Below, piece by piece: positions 1-7,538 of a stretch of 35,409 nucleotides of DNA. The notes beneath the pieces are model-generated. The model was given only the letters and a program-made list of their open reading frames with translations. It was not told where the DNA came from and did no database searches. Within the stretch, counting starts at the first letter, position 1, and every line of letters starts with the position of its first letter. Origin of the DNA: Dysgonamonadaceae bacterium (GTDB taxonomy: Bacteria; Bacteroidota; Bacteroidia; Bacteroidales; Dysgonomonadaceae). A program made the translations under genes and the position numbers. Location: the NCBI GenBank assembly GCA_031269865.1, contig JAISYO010000091.1, positions 1 to 35,409 on the forward strand. The letters run 5' to 3'.

Positions 1-129
1 TAAATGGAAATACAATGCCCCTCCACCGAAAAATGGCTCGATATACCTACCTTTATATTTCGGTATATGCTTTTCGATATTGGGGATTTCATTGGATTTC
101 CCGCCTCTGTATTTGATTAATGGTTTCAT
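1..129 (-). CDS. D12-class DNA adenine N6-methyltransferase, N-terminal part (runs off window)
   Basis: Reading the minus strand from an ATG at 129 gives 43 open codons up to the window edge. The N-terminus has the KYRGGK signature that opens Dam/D12-class adenine methyltransferases, and residues 31-38 (EPFFGGGA) are the FxGxG AdoMet-binding motif I. The enzyme would methylate adenine in a short recognition site, either as the modification half of a restriction-modification system or as a solitary methylase. It starts 39 nt after the caspase-like gene on the same strand, so it is probably the last visible gene of the XRE-TIR-TIR-caspase operon. The catalytic DPPY motif and any restriction enzyme would lie beyond position 1 and cannot be judged. 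Family assignment is strong for such a short piece; the biological role is inferred. Confidence 0.8.
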   Translation of the reverse strand, partial: MKPLIKYRGGKSNEIPNIEKHIPKYKGRYIEPFFGGGALYFHL

Positions 130-168
130 ACAGATTGCTTTTTATTATATTTTGATTTAATCATACCG

Positions 169-1122
169 CTATATTCTATCTTTTGTAATCAAATTCCAAT
201 AATGTTCGCCTAATATTGTCAATTTACACGATTTGCTCTCCATTGCTGCAAAATACATATGTTCGGCATCAATAGGCACTACTAAATTAATACGATTATA
301 CTTTTGTAATAATTCAAATTTCAGTGTGTTTTCTTTATTTGGCTCTTCGCTCGTTGGTTCAAAACTTGGGTCAAGTTTAAAGTCTTGTCCTTTTTCAGGG
401 AACAATTCCGTCAATTTTTTCAAGTCAGATAAAGAAATTGGCGGTTGAACTTTCCGTAAAGTTATAAAACTACGAACATTCGTTTTGAAAATTGGGCGTT
501 GTTCCCATGCGCCTAACGATTGGTCAATATGTGCATAAATACTACCCGGCGTTATATCACCGACTAAATTTGCAACGCTACCATTCATTGCATCAACAAA
601 TAAATTTGTAAAAACTCCGTTTCCACCTTCTTCAATTGCATATTGATTTTCACTTGAAGCCGTTAAAATGGTAGTTCCTTCTGTAAGTATTGACTTGTCT
701 TCTTGCGGGGACGATTTACCCATTACTCCTGCATGACAACAATCTAAAATAATAACTTTGTTTCTTGCCTGCGAATTATTGACAATATGTAGCAATTCAT
801 TCATCGGCAATCCATCATCGCCATCTTTGCAGTCGGAAGTAATCAAATAACCGCCTGTATTTTCAATATAACCGTGTCCTGAGAAATAAAATAACGCTAT
901 ATCGCATTGGTCTTTAAATAGTTCTTCAATTTTGTTTTTCAAATCTTTTCTATTGATAGAAGTAGAAGAACTCGTGGCAATTTCAATATCTACATCAAAG
1001 TTTTTCGTGCCATCGCCGTGCCTGTCAAGCACTTGCTTGATAGCATACGCATCATTAACGCAACCTTTTAATAGGCTTATGTTTTCGTAATAATCAATGC
1101 CAACGACTAATGCTTTTCTCAT
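169..1122 (-). CDS. Caspase-like (peptidase C14) protease, candidate effector of a type IV Thoeris-like system
   Basis: This is a 317-aa protein with a caspase/metacaspase fold at residues 1-220. It opens with a typical first strand (ALVVGIDYY), has the catalytic histidine in FYFSGHG (His83), and the catalytic cysteine in LDCCHAG (Cys129, directly before His as in metacaspases). Residues about 225-317 form a second region, with a conserved-looking stretch near 283-306 (VPIDAEHMYFAAM, then LTILGEHYW), that may sense a signal. There is no signal peptide or membrane segment, so it is cytosolic. The gene begins 2 nt after the second TIR gene and is clearly co-transcribed with both TIR genes. In type IV Thoeris a TIR protein makes a cyclic ADP-ribose isomer that switches on a caspase-like protease, which then degrades cell proteins. 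That role here is inferred from context and catalytic residues. Confidence 0.85.
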   Translation of the reverse strand: MRKALVVGIDYYENISLLKGCVNDAYAIKQVLDRHGDGTKNFDVDIEIATSSSTSINRKDLKNKIEELFKDQCDIALFYFSGHGYIENTGGYLITSDCKDGDDGLPMNELLHIVNNSQARNKVIILDCCHAGVMGKSSPQEDKSILTEGTTILTASSENQYAIEEGGNGVFTNLFVDAMNGSVANLVGDITPGSIYAHIDQSLGAWEQRPIFKTNVRSFITLRKVQPPISLSDLKKLTELFPEKGQDFKLDPSFEPTSEEPNKENTLKFELLQKYNRINLVVPIDAEHMYFAAMESKSCKLTILGEHYWNLITKDRI

Positions 1123-1124
1123 AA

Positions 1125-1535
1125 TTATTTGTTTTTACCTTCTTTCATTACTTGGTCTATTGCAGAAGCAATTTTATCCCAGTCCCAATCACTGGTTCTA
1201 TTTCTCTGTAACCCTGTTGGCAATAGAGTAATTGTATTTGCTCCACCAACATAAACTCCAAAGATTGGAACATTTTGTGTTTTTGCAAAATCAATCTCTT
1301 TAATTACACCTGTTGCAATGTATGTTTTTTTGCCAACAAGCACAATTAATATATTACATTTATTTATTTTTGATTTAATTAGTTCTTCCCACTCTTTTGG
1401 GGGAAGAGATTCTTTTGATGACCAATCTTCAATATTGAAAGGGGTGCGTGAGTTTTTTGCTTGACCTATAAATAGATTTTTTTCAGTGCTATTATTGTCA
1501 AAATCAAAACTTATAAATGCTCTTGGATTTGCCAT
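1125..1535 (-). CDS. TIR-like (DUF1863/ThsB-type) domain protein, second copy
   Basis: This is a 136-aa protein made of a single TIR-like domain of the MTH538/DUF1863 type found in ThsB proteins. The first strand and loop read RAFISFDFD (residues 5-13), the central strand ILIVLVGKKTY lies at 62-72, and the helix that carries the catalytic glutamate in TIR NADases reads GVIKEIDFA (Glu80). It should consume NAD to make a nucleotide signal or sense infection; this is inferred from family. It lies 23 nt after the first TIR gene and 2 nt before the caspase gene. It is clearly divergent from the neighbouring TIR protein, so this is not a recent duplication. Confidence 0.82.
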   Translation of the reverse strand: MANPRAFISFDFDNNSTEKNLFIGQAKNSRTPFNIEDWSSKESLPPKEWEELIKSKINKCNILIVLVGKKTYIATGVIKEIDFAKTQNVPIFGVYVGGANTITLLPTGLQRNRTSDWDWDKIASAIDQVMKEGKNK

Positions 1536-1558
1536 CTTTTATTTTTAAAATTATTATT

Positions 1559-1957
1559 TTATCCTAATTCTTCAATAGCCTTTACAATAGAACTACCTTG
1601 CCATTTGACAATTTTATCTGCATTATCTTTTACTACTTTGGAAGTTCTTTCAGAACCCCACGGTTCAATTGCAATAATAGGTTTACCATATGACTTAGCA
1701 ATGTCAATTTCTTCGTTAATCCATTTGCTATAAGAAGCATAAACACCTGCCAAAATTAAAACACAACTTGTTCCTCTCATTTGGGCATCAATTGCTTCTC
1801 TTAATTGTTTTTGTGTTCCATTCGTATGAATAGGGTCATTTTGGGGAACAGAGTGATTATAATAATCCAACCCTTGTTCATCAAGCATTTCCACAATTCT
1901 GTCATAAGCATCTCCGTATGCCCATGAATGACTAATAAATAATCTGTATGTTTTCAT
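1559..1957 (-). CDS. TIR-domain protein, first copy (candidate ThsB)
   Basis: This is a 132-aa single-domain TIR protein. It has the BB-loop-side first strand YRLFISHSW (residues 4-12), the core strand CVLILAGVYASYSKW (65-79) and the helix WINEEIDIA in which Glu83 matches the catalytic glutamate of NAD-cleaving TIR enzymes (W then four residues on to E, followed by I). It would act in the cytosol as the signal-producing partner of the caspase-like protein. Its ATG overlaps the stop of the XRE gene by 4 nt (ATGA), which indicates translational coupling. The region is visibly more A+T-rich than the mobilization genes next to it. Family call is firm; the product molecule and trigger are unknown. 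Confidence 0.85.
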   Translation of the reverse strand: MKTYRLFISHSWAYGDAYDRIVEMLDEQGLDYYNHSVPQNDPIHTNGTQKQLREAIDAQMRGTSCVLILAGVYASYSKWINEEIDIAKSYGKPIIAIEPWGSERTSKVVKDNADKIVKWQGSSIVKAIEELG

Positions 1958-2277
1958 ATCTCAAAATTTTTATTACTGTTATTATCTTTTGTTTGATATT
2001 TCACCTTTTCCTCTGCCACTTTCAACGCTTGTAATGCAATGTCTTCATCTAAAACTTCATAAACGACTTTATCGGAAAGCCATGCTACTAATAATTCATT
2101 TTCGCTTACATTAAAGTATGCAGCAAGTTTAATAATCTGTTCCCGTGAGGCTTTTCGCTGTCCACGTTCGATTCGGCTCATTATAGCTGGGTCAATATCA
2201 AGGTAAGCAGCAATCACTCGTAATGGTAACTGCTTGCTTTCTCTCAATTCTCTTAGTATTTCGCCTATATTTTTCAT
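1954..2277 (-). CDS. XRE/Cro-type helix-turn-helix regulator
   Basis: This is a small regulator of about 107 aa. The start chosen is the ATG at 2277, giving MKNIGEILRELRESK. A longer frame from 2361 would add a hydrophobic, unrelated N-terminus that lies over the likely promoter. Residues 5-62 are a classical lambda-repressor-like HTH, with recognition part YLDIDPAIMSRIERGQRKAS, followed by a short C-terminal helical tail ending in AEEKVKYQ. Regulators of this form are often found beside type II DNA methyltransferase genes in Bacteroidetes. It is the first gene of the run XRE-TIR-TIR-caspase-methyltransferase and overlaps the first TIR gene by 4 nt. It probably represses its own operon. Confidence 0.85.
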   Translation of the reverse strand: MKNIGEILRELRESKQLPLRVIAAYLDIDPAIMSRIERGQRKASREQIIKLAAYFNVSENELLVAWLSDKVVYEVLDEDIALQALKVAEEKVKYQTKDNNSNKNFEI

Positions 2278-2341
2278 CACGATAAAATTTTCTTGACTAT
2301 TTTTGACAAAGATACAAACTATATTAGATACCACGATATAA
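2278..2341 (-). promoter_or_regulatory. Candidate promoter and operator of the XRE-TIR-caspase operon
   Basis: On the minus strand, TATCTTTG at 2307-2314 matches the Bacteroidetes -7 box TAnnTTTG and lies about 30 nt before the XRE start at 2277. Two copies of a short motif, CACGATA as read on the plus strand (2278-2284 and 2332-2338), flank the -7 box, about 54 nt apart. They could be binding sites for the XRE protein. I see no clear TTTG -33 box at the usual distance, so the promoter call is moderate and the operator call is weak. Confidence 0.4.
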
Positions 2342-2373
2342 ATGAAAGAAAAAGTTATCAACAGTTGGGTATC

Positions 2374-3594
2374 CTATATCTTAATCCCCTTGTTTTTATT
2401 CACTTCCGATTTCTTTTCGATATTGAATCTTTGCTGTACCTCCTGATATTTCTGCTTAAACCATTCTAAAATATCCATCCCATTGAGATTCAGCCTCAGT
2501 TTATTCGGATTATTCGATTCTTTCTCGATTTTCAGTTTAACATCTTCCGCTGCAAACTTCCGGTTGTGTTCAGGCGAAAAGAAAGAAAAAGATTTGACTG
2601 TTAGAGTTTTACCATCAAACAGCGACTTTATATTTTCAACAGCAAGCCCAATTTTCCGGCAAAGTCCGGCAATGCGGAGTTGTTCTTTCATCATCGGGAA
2701 CAAACTGTGAATCAAGTTCAGCTCTTCCTGCGCCTTGTACGGCTCGTATTCCTGTTTTGCCTTTTGGAGTTTGGCTTCTACGGTTGCCAATTCTTTTGTT
2801 TTATCTTTTACATGCCTGTCCATATCAAGAAATTTTTCCCTTGCCTCATCTTTGCGGTCGTACAAATCCCGAACCTTTTCATAGACTTCCTGATGTTCCT
2901 GCTTTTGTTCCTGAATGTCTTCTTTCAGATGCTCGTTTTCGACAAACAGTTCCCTGTAATACTGCTGTGTTGTGATATTTCTTGCCTCTGAACCCCTGAC
3001 GCCCCGTTGCAATCCATATTTCTGCATCCGCTCTGCGTAACTGTCCTGATAGCCTTCGAGTTTATCCCTTGCCATCACATCATCGGCGCACAAGCGGGCG
3101 GCGTTGGGATTCTTTTTCCGATACTTTTTCTTACCATCCTCCGGCTTTGTCGCTTTAGCTTTTCTTCTTTCACCGGTAACAATCGGGACTACGGTAGCAT
3201 GGATATGGGGCGTCTTTTCGTCCAGATGCAGGACAGCCGATACAAGATTATCCTTACCGAATGTTTCCCTTACCCAATTGAGACTGTCCCGACACCAATC
3301 ATCCAGTTTGCCGGAAGCCTCAATGCGTTTCATATCTTCCGGACTGCCGGTGAGCATAAACCGCAAGGCGCGAACTTGTTTTTCATTAATCTTGCGGGTG
3401 ATACCGGCGTGTTCTATCCGGTATTGGATTGCTTCCGTCCGGTTGTTTACCCCATCGGGAAAATGAATCAGTTCTTTATTCAGGTGTGTACGGGTTTTGT
3501 CCGCGTTTTTCGGGTCGATTGTCCGCTCAATGTGTGCCGACGTTGCGGCATCATTGCCCGACGCTTTTTTGATATTGAGTACTGCATATCCCAT
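2374..3594 (-). CDS. mobV: MobV-family relaxase (plasmid mobilization / Pre-type protein)
   Basis: This is a 406-aa protein. The N-terminal relaxase domain shows the MobV motif 1 (HIER, His21/Arg24), an HLNKEL segment near residue 39 and the metal-binding three-histidine motif HLDEKTPHIH (123-132). Residues about 220-310 are a charged coiled coil, as is usual in Pre/Mob proteins. It would nick one strand of oriT and pilot it into a recipient, using a conjugation channel supplied by another element. A long inverted repeat directly upstream (3691-3749) is the likely nicking region. The gene is downstream of the primase-like and ATPase genes on the same strand. Length is typical and the gene looks intact. 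Confidence 0.93.
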   Translation of the reverse strand: MGYAVLNIKKASGNDAATSAHIERTIDPKNADKTRTHLNKELIHFPDGVNNRTEAIQYRIEHAGITRKINEKQVRALRFMLTGSPEDMKRIEASGKLDDWCRDSLNWVRETFGKDNLVSAVLHLDEKTPHIHATVVPIVTGERRKAKATKPEDGKKKYRKKNPNAARLCADDVMARDKLEGYQDSYAERMQKYGLQRGVRGSEARNITTQQYYRELFVENEHLKEDIQEQKQEHQEVYEKVRDLYDRKDEAREKFLDMDRHVKDKTKELATVEAKLQKAKQEYEPYKAQEELNLIHSLFPMMKEQLRIAGLCRKIGLAVENIKSLFDGKTLTVKSFSFFSPEHNRKFAAEDVKLKIEKESNNPNKLRLNLNGMDILEWFKQKYQEVQQRFNIEKKSEVNKNKGIKI

Positions 3595-3638
3595 TTTAGA
3601 TTATTTTACTGTTAATAATTTGATTGGAAATTTTATCC

Positions 3639-3658
3639 GGCTTCCGTTTCGGGAAGCC
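3639..3658. other. Small stem-loop near the MobV start
   Basis: GGCTTCC (3639-3645) and GGAAGCC (3652-3658) can pair as a perfect 7-bp stem with a 6-nt loop. It sits between the relaxase start and the long inverted repeat. There is no T-tract on either strand, so it is not a convincing terminator. It may be part of the oriT region or of the relaxase leader. Confidence 0.4.
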
Positions 3659-3690
3659 TTCAGGAGGAGTCCAGAGGGGGAACACCTTTG

Positions 3691-3749
3691 GCTTATTGGG
3701 GCATTTTTAGCGTAGAGCAACGGAGCGTTAAGAAAATGCCCTAATAAGC
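3691..3749. other. oriT: Candidate oriT: long inverted repeat upstream of the relaxase gene
   Basis: The left arm GCTTATTGGGGCATTTT (3691-3707) pairs with 3733-3749, broken only by one G-T wobble. After a small bulge the stem continues with 3708-3712 against 3726-3730. The loop is about 13 nt. The hairpin lies 97 nt upstream of the mobV start, in a 192-bp spacer that otherwise holds no gene. MobV relaxases normally act at an inverted repeat next to their own gene, so this is the best oriT candidate in the window. The nick position is not identifiable by eye. Confidence 0.6.
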
Positions 3750-3786
3750 TACGGCAATTTTTAAATTGTCCCTGCGGCACGTTCGC

Positions 3787-4683
3787 TCAAAGTTTGAAAC
3801 CCTTGCGTACCTGCTTTTGAGGAAGCTGTTTTTTGTTGCACAAATATTCATTCAGGTCTTTATGCTTGGCGTAGAACTCCGACTGGTCAGTAACATTTAG
3901 GTAACAGAGTTTCAGTTCCTGAACTGCACGTTTTCCTGCTTCGTCATTATCTAAAAAGGTGGTAATGCTTCCGTATCCGGTCAGAGAACTTTTTATTTTT
4001 GCCAGATTGCTCAACGAATTGAGGATTATCACATCGGCTTTGGCTTGCTGCCAATTCTTCATCGTCAGGAACGAAAGGTAGTCCATAAAACCTTCGAACA
4101 GTTGGCAGGTATTGTTATTGCCGGCTGCTTTTATTGTTGTGGTGTTTTTTGAGGTACATCCTTTGAAATACCTGTTCCGCAACTCATAGCCTCCGGTATC
4201 GTTTCTGAACCCAACAGCAAAATAGGGTTTGCCGTTTACGCTGTAATGTACTTCCTGACAATGCAGCCGGGCGATTTCAGTGTTTATACTCCGTTCATTC
4301 AGGTAAGTGAGTAAACTTGGATTAGTCAGCACATCAATTCTCTGAATAGAAATTGTCTGTTGGTGTGGAATTTTCGGGACAATCTCTTTTTCCTTTTGAA
4401 AAGAAAAAGAGGCTGTCCCGGCAATCTTTTGCTCCAGTAATTGCATGGCTCTACCGTTGGAACAGCTTTCGATACGCATAACAAGGTCGATGAGCGTTCC
4501 GCCTTCGCCTGTCCCGTAATCTATCCACAGGTTTTTATTGTAATCCACTTTCATGCTTGCGTTATGGTCTTCCCTGAATGGAGAATGATACATGCCATAA
4601 CTGACGTTGTCTTTTGCCGGATAAATGCCTGAACCGGCAAGATAATCCCGTATCGGGAACTGATTGATTATTTTTGAGTTCAT
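3787..4683 (-). CDS. Toprim/primase-like protein of a mobilizable element, degenerate zinc finger
   Basis: This 298-aa protein resembles the CHC2-Toprim primase proteins of Bacteroidales mobile elements. Residues 28-67 follow the zinc-finger layout (HSPFREDHNASMKV, then WIDYGTGEGGTLIDLV), but the usual cysteines are replaced by His, Ser, Asp and Gly, so zinc binding is probably lost. The Toprim core has LFEGFMDYLSF (metal-binding glutamate) and FLDNDEAGK (acidic pair). It would prime DNA synthesis of the transferred or excised element. It lies between the iteron-like hairpins and the oriT candidate, on the same strand as the ATPase and relaxase genes. Confidence 0.8.
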   Translation of the reverse strand: MNSKIINQFPIRDYLAGSGIYPAKDNVSYGMYHSPFREDHNASMKVDYNKNLWIDYGTGEGGTLIDLVMRIESCSNGRAMQLLEQKIAGTASFSFQKEKEIVPKIPHQQTISIQRIDVLTNPSLLTYLNERSINTEIARLHCQEVHYSVNGKPYFAVGFRNDTGGYELRNRYFKGCTSKNTTTIKAAGNNNTCQLFEGFMDYLSFLTMKNWQQAKADVIILNSLSNLAKIKSSLTGYGSITTFLDNDEAGKRAVQELKLCYLNVTDQSEFYAKHKDLNEYLCNKKQLPQKQVRKGFKL

Positions 4684-4750
4684 GAAATTTAATACTTAAT
4701 TGATTGATATTTTTTCTTCACAGGAATAGTCATATCCCGTTAAATACTGC

Positions 4751-4860
4751 TTTACTTTATCATGTGTATATAGAATACAGGGTAAAGTAAAGCGTTTCCG
4801 GTAATCCCCGCCGGAAACTTTACTTTACTCTATTATCTATGCACCCGAAGTAAGGTAAAG
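4751..4860. repeat. Iteron-like repeat cluster with a large hairpin
   Basis: The 183-bp spacer between the ATPase and primase-like genes has four copies of a TTTACTTTA-like unit in alternating orientation. These are 4751-4760 (plus), 4782-4791 (minus), 4819-4828 (plus) and a variant around 4850-4860 (minus). The middle pair forms a hairpin: GTAAAGTAAA plus GTTTCCGG (4782-4791, 4794-4801) pairs with CCGGAAAC plus TTTACTTTAC (4811-4828), with a 2-nt bulge and a 9-nt loop. There is no T-tract. The position beside a RepA-like ATPase and a primase-like gene suggests a replication origin or a binding site for an element-encoded protein. A role as transcription attenuator is also possible. Confidence 0.55.
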
Positions 4861-4866
4861 CGATTA

Positions 4867-5916
4867 TCAGTAATGATAGTCGGGATTTAAGCCGTATTTC
4901 TTGGCGGTATCCTTTACTATCATGCGCTTGTTCTCAAGAAAAGTTTTTAACTTACATAACTTGTTTTCGCCATAGATACAGTTGATTGTGGCATATCCTC
5001 GTTTAAGGGCTTTCATCAACTCACTGTAACCGTACCGTTCCGATTCGGGAAAAGTCGCTTCTAATGCTTGCCTGTGCTGCTCTTCTTTCAACTCTGAATA
5101 GTCAAAAAAATGAGATTCGCTTTTATTCTTATCGAAACTGTATCCATCAACTAATTCGGGAAAAGCGTCTTCATTAATCCGGAACGCAAACGGTTCAAAG
5201 TCCATTGCGCGGATATGGACCGCCTGAACGGTACTAATATTGCTGTCCAGTTTGTCTTTGGCAACTTCCAAAACCGTTTCAGCCTTGTTGTTTAACTCCG
5301 TTCCGATATGTCCACGTGCATTTTCATCCGCCTTGTTCTGGTGCAGGATAGTATGAATGTGGATTTGCCTCTCATCCGTCCACTGCATAAGTTTGGAAAT
5401 GATTTTGGTCGATTCGCTTGGACTGTTAATGTCGTAAACCATGTCCCGGATGCCGTCGATAATGACCAATCCCAGACCCTCCGTATGATAAATGGCTTCT
5501 TCCACAATAGCTATCCTGATTTCCGGCGTATGTCTGCGCAATGATAGGAACTCTAAATTTTTCGGTTCTTTATCCAACGGCAAGCCTGCCATGCGGACTA
5601 TACGCTTCATTACCTTTTGGCAATGGTAAGGGCTTTGTTCAGTATCCACATACAGGATTTTTCGCTTGTTTTCGGGAAGTTCGGCGGCGTATTGCAATAC
5701 TGTTCCATTCTTCAATGATGCAGCCACAATCGCCGATACGTTAAACGTCTTTTTACTCTTAGCCTTGCCGATGGAAGCGCTGAAATTACCTAATGTCCCG
5801 ATGGCTGAACCATGTACTTTAAGAATTTCAGGGGCTACTATATATTCTCCGGTAAGCGTCAAACGGGAAGCCTGCCAAAGAATAATGACTTCCTGATTTT
5901 TCGTTTGCTCTGCCAT
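4867..5916 (-). CDS. RepA-like AAA family ATPase (RecA-fold helicase/loader type)
   Basis: This is a 349-aa protein with a RecA-like ATPase core in residues about 15-250. The phosphate-binding loop reads SASIGKAKSKKTF (near 46-58), a variant of Walker A in which the usual GxxGxGKS is altered. ILYVDTEQSP follows, then Walker B LGLVIIDGIRDMVYD, and a sensor strand IHTILHQNKAD with GTELNNKAETV. This layout is that of plasmid RepA/AAA_25 proteins common in Bacteroidales mobile elements. The C-terminal about 80 residues look like a DNA-binding or partner module (YGYSELMKALK). It starts 3 nt after the HTH gene ends and is followed by the iteron-like cluster, which points to a role in replication or excision. 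Confidence 0.82.
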   Translation of the reverse strand: MAEQTKNQEVIILWQASRLTLTGEYIVAPEILKVHGSAIGTLGNFSASIGKAKSKKTFNVSAIVAASLKNGTVLQYAAELPENKRKILYVDTEQSPYHCQKVMKRIVRMAGLPLDKEPKNLEFLSLRRHTPEIRIAIVEEAIYHTEGLGLVIIDGIRDMVYDINSPSESTKIISKLMQWTDERQIHIHTILHQNKADENARGHIGTELNNKAETVLEVAKDKLDSNISTVQAVHIRAMDFEPFAFRINEDAFPELVDGYSFDKNKSESHFFDYSELKEEQHRQALEATFPESERYGYSELMKALKRGYATINCIYGENKLCKLKTFLENKRMIVKDTAKKYGLNPDYHY

Positions 5917-5919
5917 AGC

Positions 5920-6234
5920 CTATTTCTTTAAAAGTTTGTTCGACATCACATACTGCTGCGCTTCCCTTGCAATCTGCATTTGCGTTTTCACCGGATTTTG
6001 GCGTAACCATGCCTCCAATTCTTCCTTTTCAAAATACAGCATTTTCCCCTGCGGTTTGTAATGGGGAATCAGGTTACCCGACGTTAATTTGTACAGGTAA
6101 CTTTTCGACAGGTTGAGGAACTTGCTCGCTTCATCAAAGCTAAGAATGTTTTTTACCATAAATACCATTTGTTCGAGTTCGGAAACCCGGTCTTCAATAC
6201 TTTTCATTTCAAAATATTTTTTGTAATTGAACAA
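5920..6234 (-). CDS. Excisionase-type helix-turn-helix protein
   Basis: This 104-aa protein has an HTH_17/MerR-like winged helix in residues 29-80: ILSFDEASKFLNLSKSYLYKLTS then IPHYKPQGKMLYFEKEELEAWL. The wing with LYFEKEELEAWL is diagnostic. The start may be the ATG at 6234 or the internal one at 6207 (MKSIEDRVSELEQM); the N-terminal residues form a short coiled coil. Such proteins act as recombination directionality factors or as regulators of mobile-element operons. It is the first gene of a pair with the ATPase, 3 nt apart. Confidence 0.85.
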   Translation of the reverse strand: MFNYKKYFEMKSIEDRVSELEQMVFMVKNILSFDEASKFLNLSKSYLYKLTSGNLIPHYKPQGKMLYFEKEELEAWLRQNPVKTQMQIAREAQQYVMSNKLLKK

Positions 6235-6246
6235 ATGGAGTGTGCA

Positions 6247-6284
6247 CCCTCCGTAACTTGTAATCGACTACGGGGGCAAAAGTA
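6247..6284 (-). promoter_or_regulatory. Candidate promoter and leader hairpin of the HTH-ATPase operon
   Basis: On the minus strand TACTTTTG (6277-6284) fits the TAnnTTTG -7 box about 43 nt before the ATG at 6234. Directly downstream is a hairpin: CCC-CCGTA (6247-6249, 6251-6255) pairs with TACGGGGG (6269-6276), leaving one bulged base. The transcript would carry this hairpin close to its 5' end, where it could affect translation or stability. No -33 box is evident. Confidence 0.4.
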
Positions 6285-6336
6285 ATTCAGTAAAAATCAA
6301 CGGAAATTGAGCTTTGTTTGAGGTATCAACCTATGC

Positions 6337-7230
6337 TCAATGTTTTTTCAGTTGTTTGACGTAGCTGTCAATGATTTCCGATTTTCTGGGAGAGATGTAT
6401 TTGATGCTGTCGTTGGCGGATGACAAATCGCTGTTGTTAAGGTATTTTTCTTTCTTCGGGGCGAGTACCAGCCTATTGTTGGCGATGACGGACTGCCATT
6501 CGTAGGTGATATAATCATGTGCACTCAGTTTCATCATGAAATACGCAAGCAAACGGTTATTGTCGGACTTCAAAGCCCCATCCAGACGGCAATAAAAGAA
6601 GTCTTCAAGGATTTTAGGCGTGATTTCGGTGGTAAAGATATGAGCATCATTAACACAGTCGGTCAGAATCCGAATAGCTTCATCATCCAGCTTGCAGTTA
6701 AACGGATTGTCTTTGCCGACTATCTTTTTTGATGGGGTATTTTTTTCTTTTTCATTGGATTCTTCTACGGTATTGACTATCGGTGGCGGCTGTAACCGTT
6801 CCTGTTCTTCGTTTTGCAGGAGTTCCAAATACCTGCTGTAAACAACCAACTTGATAATAATGGAAAAATAAGGTAGTTGTTCGTCATACGAATCCGGATT
6901 TTCAAAATATAATCTGTCATCGAAATTGTTATATGGAAAAGCGATGTACTTCTTGCGTACTTCCGGCAAAAGATTTTCTATGAATGTGGTTTCCCAAATG
7001 AAGTTAGGCGTTTTCCAGTCGAAAGCAAAAGATTGGATAGCCGGAACTTGTTGATTCATGGATACAAGCTCTTCCGTAATCCTGAAAATCTCTTTTCGGA
7101 TATAGTCCGGGCGTTGCTTGCTATTAAGGTATGCCTTTTTCAAAGACAATGCATCCCTAAGTGCGTCGTAGTCGTGTTGGGCGCACCGATCTATAAGTTT
7201 TTGAAGTGATTCAAACTGTTTTTCAATCAT
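6337..7230 (-). CDS. Hypothetical protein of the mobile element (297 aa)
   Basis: I do not recognise a family. The protein is soluble and mostly helical, with no signal peptide. A low-complexity linker rich in Pro, Glu and Lys (about residues 145-170) separates an N-terminal half from a C-terminal half that looks like a small winged-helix-like fold. It is the gene closest to the tRNA attachment end of the element. A -7 box TATCTTTG at 7251-7258 (minus strand) and a short palindrome GTAC-5-nt-GTAC lie directly before its start, so it has its own promoter and possibly an operator. Confidence 0.6.
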   Translation of the reverse strand: MIEKQFESLQKLIDRCAQHDYDALRDALSLKKAYLNSKQRPDYIRKEIFRITEELVSMNQQVPAIQSFAFDWKTPNFIWETTFIENLLPEVRKKYIAFPYNNFDDRLYFENPDSYDEQLPYFSIIIKLVVYSRYLELLQNEEQERLQPPPIVNTVEESNEKEKNTPSKKIVGKDNPFNCKLDDEAIRILTDCVNDAHIFTTEITPKILEDFFYCRLDGALKSDNNRLLAYFMMKLSAHDYITYEWQSVIANNRLVLAPKKEKYLNNSDLSSANDSIKYISPRKSEIIDSYVKQLKKH

Positions 7231-7235
7231 CTGCC

Positions 7236-7258
7236 GTACTTTTTGTACTGCAAAGATA
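7236..7258 (-). promoter_or_regulatory. Promoter of the 297-aa gene with small palindrome
   Basis: TATCTTTG on the minus strand (7251-7258) matches TAnnTTTG and ends about 20 nt before the ATG at 7230. GTAC-TTTTT-GTAC (7236-7248) lies just downstream and could be an operator half-site pair. Confidence 0.42.
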
Positions 7259-7383
7259 GTGAAAGGTTGGTTTTTAAGAAAATAGGAGTAGAAAACGGAA
7301 GAAATCGACAGGATTGTCGTTAATAATATCTAAAAGTTGTCCTATTAAAATAGGAAAGTACGCTTTATCCTTGTTTTCGCCAG

Positions 7384-7403
7384 TTAGTACACTTTTAGTA
7401 CAC
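7384..7403. repeat. Short direct repeats near the element end (candidate recombinase sites)
   Basis: TTAGTACAC occurs twice in tandem (7384-7392, 7395-7403). TTAGTAC recurs at 7451-7457 at the 3' end of the tRNA gene. Their position between the element genes and the tRNA target suggests arm or core sites for a tyrosine integrase. This is inference from location. Confidence 0.35.
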
Positions 7404-7414
7404 CTTTTAAAAGC

Positions 7415-7452
7415 AAAAACTCCTGACAATCATTGATTTATCAGGAGTTTTT
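7415..7452 (-). terminator. Perfect 12-bp stem-loop terminator after tRNA-Leu
   Basis: AAAAACTCCTGA (7415-7426) and TCAGGAGTTTTT (7441-7452) form a perfect 12-bp stem with a 14-nt loop. Read on the minus strand it lies right after the tRNA 3' end and its second arm ends in a run of T, so it should terminate the tRNA transcript. By symmetry it may also work on the plus strand. Confidence 0.75.
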
Positions 7453-7454
7453 AG

Positions 7455-7538
7455 TACCCAGAGCCGGGATCGAACCGGCATGGAAGTGAATCCACTGGTG
7501 TTTGAGACCAGCGCGTCTACCAATTCCGCCATCTGGGC
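7455..7538 (-). tRNA. tRNA-Leu (anticodon CAA)
   Basis: The reverse complement folds as a class II tRNA of 84 nt. The acceptor stem pairs GCCCAGA with TCTGGGT (one G-U at the end). The anticodon stem pairs CTGGT with ACCAG around the loop CTCAAAC, giving anticodon CAA. A long variable arm GTGGATTCACTTCCAT follows, and the T arm is GCCGG-TTCGATC-CCGGC. No CCA is encoded. The mobilizable element lies directly downstream of its 3' end, so this gene is the probable integration target, as known for the Bacteroides element NBU1, which also uses a tRNA-Leu 3' end. Confidence 0.95.

Follow-up and report, generated by a model that had tools for sequence, protein, structure and literature searches.

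A review from 2017 noted that the replication of excised integrative mobilizable elements (IMEs) had never been studied (PMC5704250), and the locus considered here raises the question of where on such an element replication might start. Between the ATPase and primase genes of one element lies a spacer (4684–4866, delimited by the list of open reading frames and by homologous spacers in relatives) that contains an array of repeated units in alternating orientation. We propose that this array, at positions 4749–4861, is probably the double-stranded, iteron-type replication origin (oriV) of the excised circle of the element. In the open-licence literature on IMEs of Bacteroidetes, searched by title and the start of the abstract, we found no description of such an array or origin.

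The host element and its genes

The window, by which we mean the whole 35,409-nt stretch of DNA under analysis, is one contig of a 202-contig genome, and a mobile element occupies its left part. The genes of the element all lie on the minus strand and encode a caspase-like protein, two TIR/ThsB-like proteins, a MobV relaxase, a CHC2/Toprim primase, an AAA_25 ATPase and an HTH_17 protein. The element is a MobV IME inserted at the 3' end of a tRNA-Leu (CAA) gene (7454–7538, minus strand). We place its boundary at this 3' end because synteny with the sole other genome of the genus starts exactly at 7454, as befits a site-specific chromosomal insertion; the element's own relaxase (2374–3594, minus strand) matches the MobV model NF041497 with 216 bits at a cut-off of 100. 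Relaxase and boundary together bear out the mobile-element setting that had been proposed in an earlier note on this DNA. No integrase was found within positions 1–7453 of the window, where the contig ends at position 1; integrase domains are present on other contigs.

The first gene of the replication operon encodes a small DNA-binding, excisionase-like protein with an HTH_17 domain (5920–6234, minus strand). Upstream of it, TACTTTTG (6277–6284, minus strand) is likely to be the operon promoter, as it fits TAnnTTTG, which we take to be the −7 type promoter motif of Bacteroidetes. The ATPase gene (4867–5916, minus strand) comes next, followed by the spacer and the gene for a DnaG-type primase with CHC2 and Toprim domain matches (3787–4683, minus strand). 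The predicted structure of the ATPase (pLDDT 89.8, from a 73-row alignment) consists of a RecA-type core at residues ∼ 30–256 and a C-terminal winged helix at ∼ 278–343. Its Pfam match to AAA_25 scores 38 bits (cut-off 27) and the RSF1010 RepA chains 1nlf, 1g8y and 1olo are among the top fold matches (TMt 0.65–0.71, 12–14% identity). RSF1010 RepA ranks second among the solved structures, with RadA above it and Rad51 and RecA entries below, so that the fold of the ATPase is clear and its exact family less so; a profile search against the sequences of solved structures gave no credible match. The two flanking proteins are thus of the kinds named in the earlier note, a RepA-like ATPase, here the proposed origin helicase, and a Toprim primase.

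Elsewhere in the element, a caspase-like peptidase (PF00656) and two small TIR/ThsB-like proteins (PF08937) are encoded at 169–1957 (minus strand) and may form a defence cassette carried by the element; an HTH regulator gene lies beside them at 1954–2361. The 297-aa protein encoded at the tRNA end (6337–7230, minus strand) has no match in Pfam, NCBIfam, PHROGs or PADLOC.

Architecture of the array

The array is 113 nt long and lies 3' of the ATPase gene and 5' of the primase gene. Its four alternating units, which had been recognized previously, are CTTTACTTTA at 4750–4759 (plus strand), 4783–4792 (minus) and 4818–4827 (plus), and CTTTACCTTA, with one mismatch, at 4851–4860 (minus). Matches to the unit with at most one mismatch number seven in the entire 35.4-kb window, five of them within 4750–4860, compared with 2.55 expected from shuffled sequences; one of 100 shuffles reached seven.

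The four units make up two dyads of ∼ 44 bp each, in which facing units flank an A/T core (ATAGATAA or CTATATACA). Both dyads, assigned to the minus strand, were delimited by an inverted-repeat scan and by within-clade alignment. Dyad A (4818–4861) has facing units at 4849–4860 and 4818–4829 around the core TCGGGTGCATAGATAATAG and reads CTTTACCTTACT-tcgggtgcatagataatag-AGTAAAGTAAAG on the minus strand, and dyad B (4749–4793) has facing units at 4777–4793 and 4749–4765 around the core ATTCTATATAC and reads GCTTTACTTTACCCTGT-attctatatac-ACATGATAAAGTAAAGC. The inner arms of the two dyads are joined by a bulged 18-bp hairpin (4782–4828, plus strand) formed by 11 bp, a 2-nt bulge (CG, 4793–4794) and 7 bp around a 9-nt loop. 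This is the hairpin with two units in its stem that the earlier note had described and on which it had laid its stress. That stress was misplaced: the linker (4793–4817) varies in the within-clade alignment and the central GC-rich hairpin is clade-specific, whereas the feature that is conserved in relatives is the pair of A/T-cored dyads.

Taken as a whole, 4749–4861 is a single imperfect palindrome with arms (4749–4792 and 4818–4861) that are 73% complementary. The 131-nt array fold has a predicted energy of −48.3 kcal/mol on the plus strand (z −7.5) and −42.7 kcal/mol on the minus strand (z −5.4), and none of 200 shuffles was as stable on either strand.

Stable hairpins between genes could belong to a transcription terminator, an attenuator or another mRNA element, and our scan did return a terminator-like site at 4794–4818, though on the plus strand, antisense to the genes. 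We consider this reading very unlikely. The sense strand has no terminator call at the array and no Rfam family matches there. Among 998 arm pairs, mismatches of the G/T kind (31) are about as frequent as those of the A/C kind (34), so that the transcribed strand shows no bias towards G-U pairs, nor any hint that RNA pairing has been selected for. A terminator would also not be expected to have both dyads of an element identical, which is the pattern described below. A strong transcript end combined with a lack of conservation, the case in which a terminator would have been accepted previously, is not what we observe, as the architecture is conserved and terminator-type evidence is missing from the sense strand.

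The array in relatives of the ATPase

Relatives of the ATPase were gathered from genomes and from viral and prophage contigs, which gave 186 loci with a complete ATPase end. Removal of near-duplicate spacers left 121 of these, 58 with at least 45% ATPase identity and 63 below that level; L001 and L002 (own copies) and L168, L178 and L179 (which ran off) had been dropped ahead of the counts. In most of the 58 closer loci the array begins right after the stop codon of the ATPase gene (median 10 nt), and in L120 and L110 it overlaps the gene end.

Conservation in related elements, which had been suggested as a check, gave a divided answer: the layout is strongly conserved, but the letters of the repeats are not conserved across the family. 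Most of these 58 relatives share the layout with units that read CTTCACTTTATT, GGTTTAGTTTAG, GGTTCGGTTCGG, TTGGTCGGTCGG or otherwise, and those of different element groups contrast with each other, as do TTTACTTTA and GGTTTAGTTTAG. A nucleotide search of plasmids with positions 4600–4960 found no match, as expected if the letters of the array diverge fast. In many relatives the units are tandem sub-repeats of ∼ 5 bp (CTTTA-CTTTA, GTTTA-GTTTA, GTTCG-GTTCG), which look as though a single protein touched each of them at two similar points, spaced by half a turn.

The position of the array is conserved as well. Within the 160 nt that follow the ATPase gene, TATATA is present in 48 of the 58 loci, compared with none before the gene, two at the coding end and two at 600–760 nt further on; the pattern is weaker in the 63 distant relatives (29 after the gene, 6 before it, 11 at the coding end and 4 further downstream). 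At least four copies of a 10-mer are found in the 200 nt after the ATPase gene in 24/58 loci, and in 0/58 both before the gene and at the coding end. Under our own scoring scheme, on which the dyad scores and mean iteron counts depend, a TATA-cored dyad with a score of at least 9 follows the ATPase gene in 33 of the 58 loci (0 and 1 in the controls), and dyads with a score of at least 11 are ∼ 85-fold denser after the gene (26 in 15,080 bp) than elsewhere (11 in 544,176 bp). In 42 of the 58 loci the score was never reached by 20 shuffles of the locus' own sequence; 16 were indistinguishable from their shuffles, and several of the latter (e.g. L012, L040, L110, L113 and L120) have an array that can be recognized on inspection or that extends into the end of the gene. 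The GGG..YATAKA core of dyad A is conserved in 32 of the 58 relatives, and the dyad starts are 61–75 bp apart in 22 of the 24 loci with two scored dyads.

Among the distant AAA_25 ATPases of elements and phage-like contigs (e.g. L014, L019, L020 and L134–L151), unit arrays are often found after the gene as well, with direct or inverted units, such as TGACGGT or TTAACACAG, around a CCCCTATATATAGGGG-type palindrome.

Co-inheritance of the units with the ATPase

When dyad arms are compared across seven ATPase clusters, dyad A agrees better with dyad B from its own element (11.4) than with that from other elements (6.5; permutation p 0.0005). The same comparison over 23 loci, from which L092 was omitted for its spurious second dyad, gave 11.1 within and 8.0 between elements (p 0.0001). 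This agreement points to several copies of one protein-binding site; a hairpin by itself would not be expected to show it. Two close relatives of the window element, L040 and L113, have units that moved together to the CCTTGCC/CCTTACC type at all four sites.

Mantel tests were run on 43 of the 58 loci, those lacking a core dyad or a primase being excluded. Similarity of the units tracks that of the ATPase (rho 0.44, p 0.001); with the ATPase controlled for, no correlation with the primase remains (−0.04, p 0.70). Individual loci show the same: L034 has the window-type unit and ATPase (L003/L034 N-part 0.91) with a primase only 42% identical to that of the window, whereas in L008 the primase is 64% identical (L003/L008 0.64) and the units differ. 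The units keep a small partial correlation with the HTH protein (0.114, p 0.021). Co-inheritance of the array and the neighbouring ATPase gene could also result from linkage alone.

We also asked whether unit identity is set by the winged helix alone. With the rest of the protein accounted for, the C-terminal part of the ATPase shows no correlation with the units (partial −0.075, p 0.85). This leaves the idea unsupported, and we make no claim that the winged helix reads the unit by itself.

The array is likewise independent of the relaxase. Dyads accompany MobV relaxases in 27 of 29 loci and MobP relaxases in all five; they are present in 8 of the 11 loci that match neither family and have more than 3.5 kb of room, and a dyad also scored in 8 of 13 loci whose sequence is too short for the relaxase to be judged. 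L093, whose sole scored dyad is spurious, far downstream and below 9, is outside the counts at a score of at least 9 yet is counted among these 'short' loci. Inverted repeats close to the relaxase gene of a mobilizable element could in principle be the nick region of the relaxase (oriT). We regard this as highly improbable for the array, which is unchanged whether MobV, MobP or neither is present and which follows the ATPase. Moreover, another inverted repeat, between the primase and relaxase genes (3691–3749, minus strand), lies directly upstream of the relaxase gene and, judged by its sequence, is the better candidate and a plausible MobV oriT.

A further reading makes the dyads an operator, bound by the HTH protein or the ATPase, through which the downstream primase and relaxase genes would be autoregulated. 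Proteins typically bind at dyads, the operon encodes an HTH protein, and plasmid iterons often double as operators. Yet the array is intra-operonic. Of 41 relatives, 34 have the TAnnTTTG motif upstream of the operon, whereas a single one of 43 array spacers contains it (2.5 expected). The array is also kept where no primase follows, and an operator has no need for melting-type TATATA cores. Operator function as the explanation of the array thus appears quite unlikely to us.

Finally, the array could be a single-strand origin (sso or ssi), its palindrome folding on the transferred or displaced strand so that the primase starts the second strand after conjugation. Such sites have precedents in sso1 of ICEBs1 (PMC4595007) and, in the passages cited, in ssiA and ssiB of IncQ plasmids (PMC4234260, PMC6925257). 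The long and stable fold and the adjoining primase gene agree with this reading, which we nevertheless judge unlikely: folding does not require units repeated between both dyads, the units track the ATPase and not the primase, and arrays persist without a neighbouring primase homologue, as in L092 and L107. An ssi is better matched by the small hairpin and A-rich element next to the primase gene (4708–4739, minus strand), where the hairpin (4723–4738) is followed by GTGAAGAAAAAA just 5' of the gene. In 31 of 47 loci a hairpin followed by G(T/C)GAAA(A)GAAAAA directly precedes the primase gene; the corresponding numbers are 13 of 47 for the ATPase gene and 2 of 23 for the relaxase gene. The element comes in two main types that follow the primase clades, L034 included. 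The leader that holds it correlates with the primase (partial correlation 0.28) and also with the C-terminal part of the ATPase (0.26), which makes its association with the primase less clean. The GTGAARAAAAA-type element may be a primase start site or an mRNA leader.

Two of the loci, L128 and L129, carry TraG-type conjugation ATPases and are probably integrative and conjugative elements (ICEs). The presence of the array in these two ICE-like elements and in the absence of a primase, its independence of the relaxase and its tracking of the ATPase together speak against a role as oriT, terminator, RNA element or operator of the primase gene. An iteron-type oriV accommodates the conserved position and layout, and the site indicated in the earlier note is the right one; the function that it suggested, a replication origin of an excised circle, is probably right too, and the phenomenon is broader than it described.

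A model of the origin and its relation to known systems

In the model that we favour, the HTH-ATPase operon would be transcribed from the promoter upstream of the HTH gene, and an initiator encoded by the element would bind the four facing units as two dyads. The most likely initiator would be the ATPase, with its C-terminal winged helix as the binding domain, or else a combination of the ATPase and the small HTH protein. The A/T (TATA) cores between the units would then open, and the ATPase, a presumed ring helicase of the RepA fold, would be loaded and unwind the DNA. The co-encoded Toprim primase would prime synthesis, possibly at the adjacent hairpin and GTGAARAAAAA element. In this way the excised circle, or a strand received by conjugation, would be copied and not lost.

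The closest parallels are the IncQ plasmids, which, in the passages cited, have a helicase, a primase, an iteron-binding protein and ssi sites (PMC4234260, PMC6925257). Like the IncQ/RSF1010 oriV with its RepA, RepB' and RepC, the module described here combines a RepA-fold ATPase (an AAA_25 match with RSF1010 RepA fold matches), a separate primase, repeated units and a relaxase on the same element. It may share a primase-linked hairpin too, as the hairpin and A-rich element 5' of the primase gene vary in type with the primase clade. IncQ iterons are direct repeats bound by RepC, whereas the units of the array, of alternating orientation, form dyads around TATATA cores. The primase here is of the CHC2/Toprim DnaG type and not RepB', which belongs to another family; besides, the ATPase bears its own winged helix and the element integrates into the chromosome.

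In pRN1, according to the passages cited, a stem-loop of ∼ 100 nt directly 3' of the winged-helix replication gene is required for replication, and within the pRN1 family its structure is highly conserved and its sequence little (PMC4234260). The array resembles it in length, in its place 3' of a replication gene (a median of 10 nt after the stop codon), in the C-terminal winged helix of the gene product and in having a structure better conserved than its letters. The pRN1 protein, as described there, joins a prim-pol and an SF3 helicase with the winged helix in one chain, whereas here a RecA-like ATPase and a Toprim primase are separate; the pRN1 origin is described in the same passages as having no iterons, unlike the clearly repeated units of the array. 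By analogy, the array would work like the origins of IncQ and pRN1, as a member of neither group.

Rep-ori modules of the SaPI/PICI type and of the type of phage P4 (mentioned in PMC4234260) belong to integrated elements with their own initiator and a short iteron origin, and their specificity differs between related elements. Unlike these, the element in the window has helicase and primase as separate genes and a relaxase in place of phage packaging. SGI1 and SXT/R391, as far as the sources cover them, are likewise integrative elements that replicate as excised circles, with different modules: the initiator of SGI1 is of the Rep_3 type (PMC5704250), and the elements are helper-dependent and belong to a different phylum.

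Distribution and implications

Beyond this element, we tentatively suggest that 'HTH – RepA-fold ATPase – dyad array – primase' is a widespread and modular replicon common to IMEs and ICEs of Bacteroidetes. In it, the spelling of the array might be a self/non-self (incompatibility) code that evolves with the ATPase, while its exchange between elements would be independent of both the primase and the relaxase. We find this generalization possible, if somewhat doubtful. If it holds, the 'non-replicating Bacteroides units' would replicate once excised, among them NBU1, which presumably carries the module, judging by its gene order. Excision of NBU1 has long been known to need extra genes (review PMC5704250). 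That need might in part be a need to amplify the excised circle.

The array supplies a precise 113-bp candidate origin and a rule for finding others, namely to look immediately behind the ATPase gene for a pair of TATA-cored dyads built from facing units. Units swapped between element groups provide a built-in control. With candidate, rule and control in hand, the origin question becomes directly testable in laboratory Bacteroides. The proposed code would also predict incompatibility groups among the elements by which genes for antibiotic resistance and defence spread in gut bacteria.

Two closed circular records contain the module, L192 (OY726037.1; 9,171 bp) and L193 (NZ_OY725959.1; 15,723 bp). 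These records are consistent with excised circles and may also be transient forms or assembly products. The L193 circle additionally carries an integrase, cfxA and a second AAA ATPase, and the two circles come from two strains labelled TSDC17.2-1.1.
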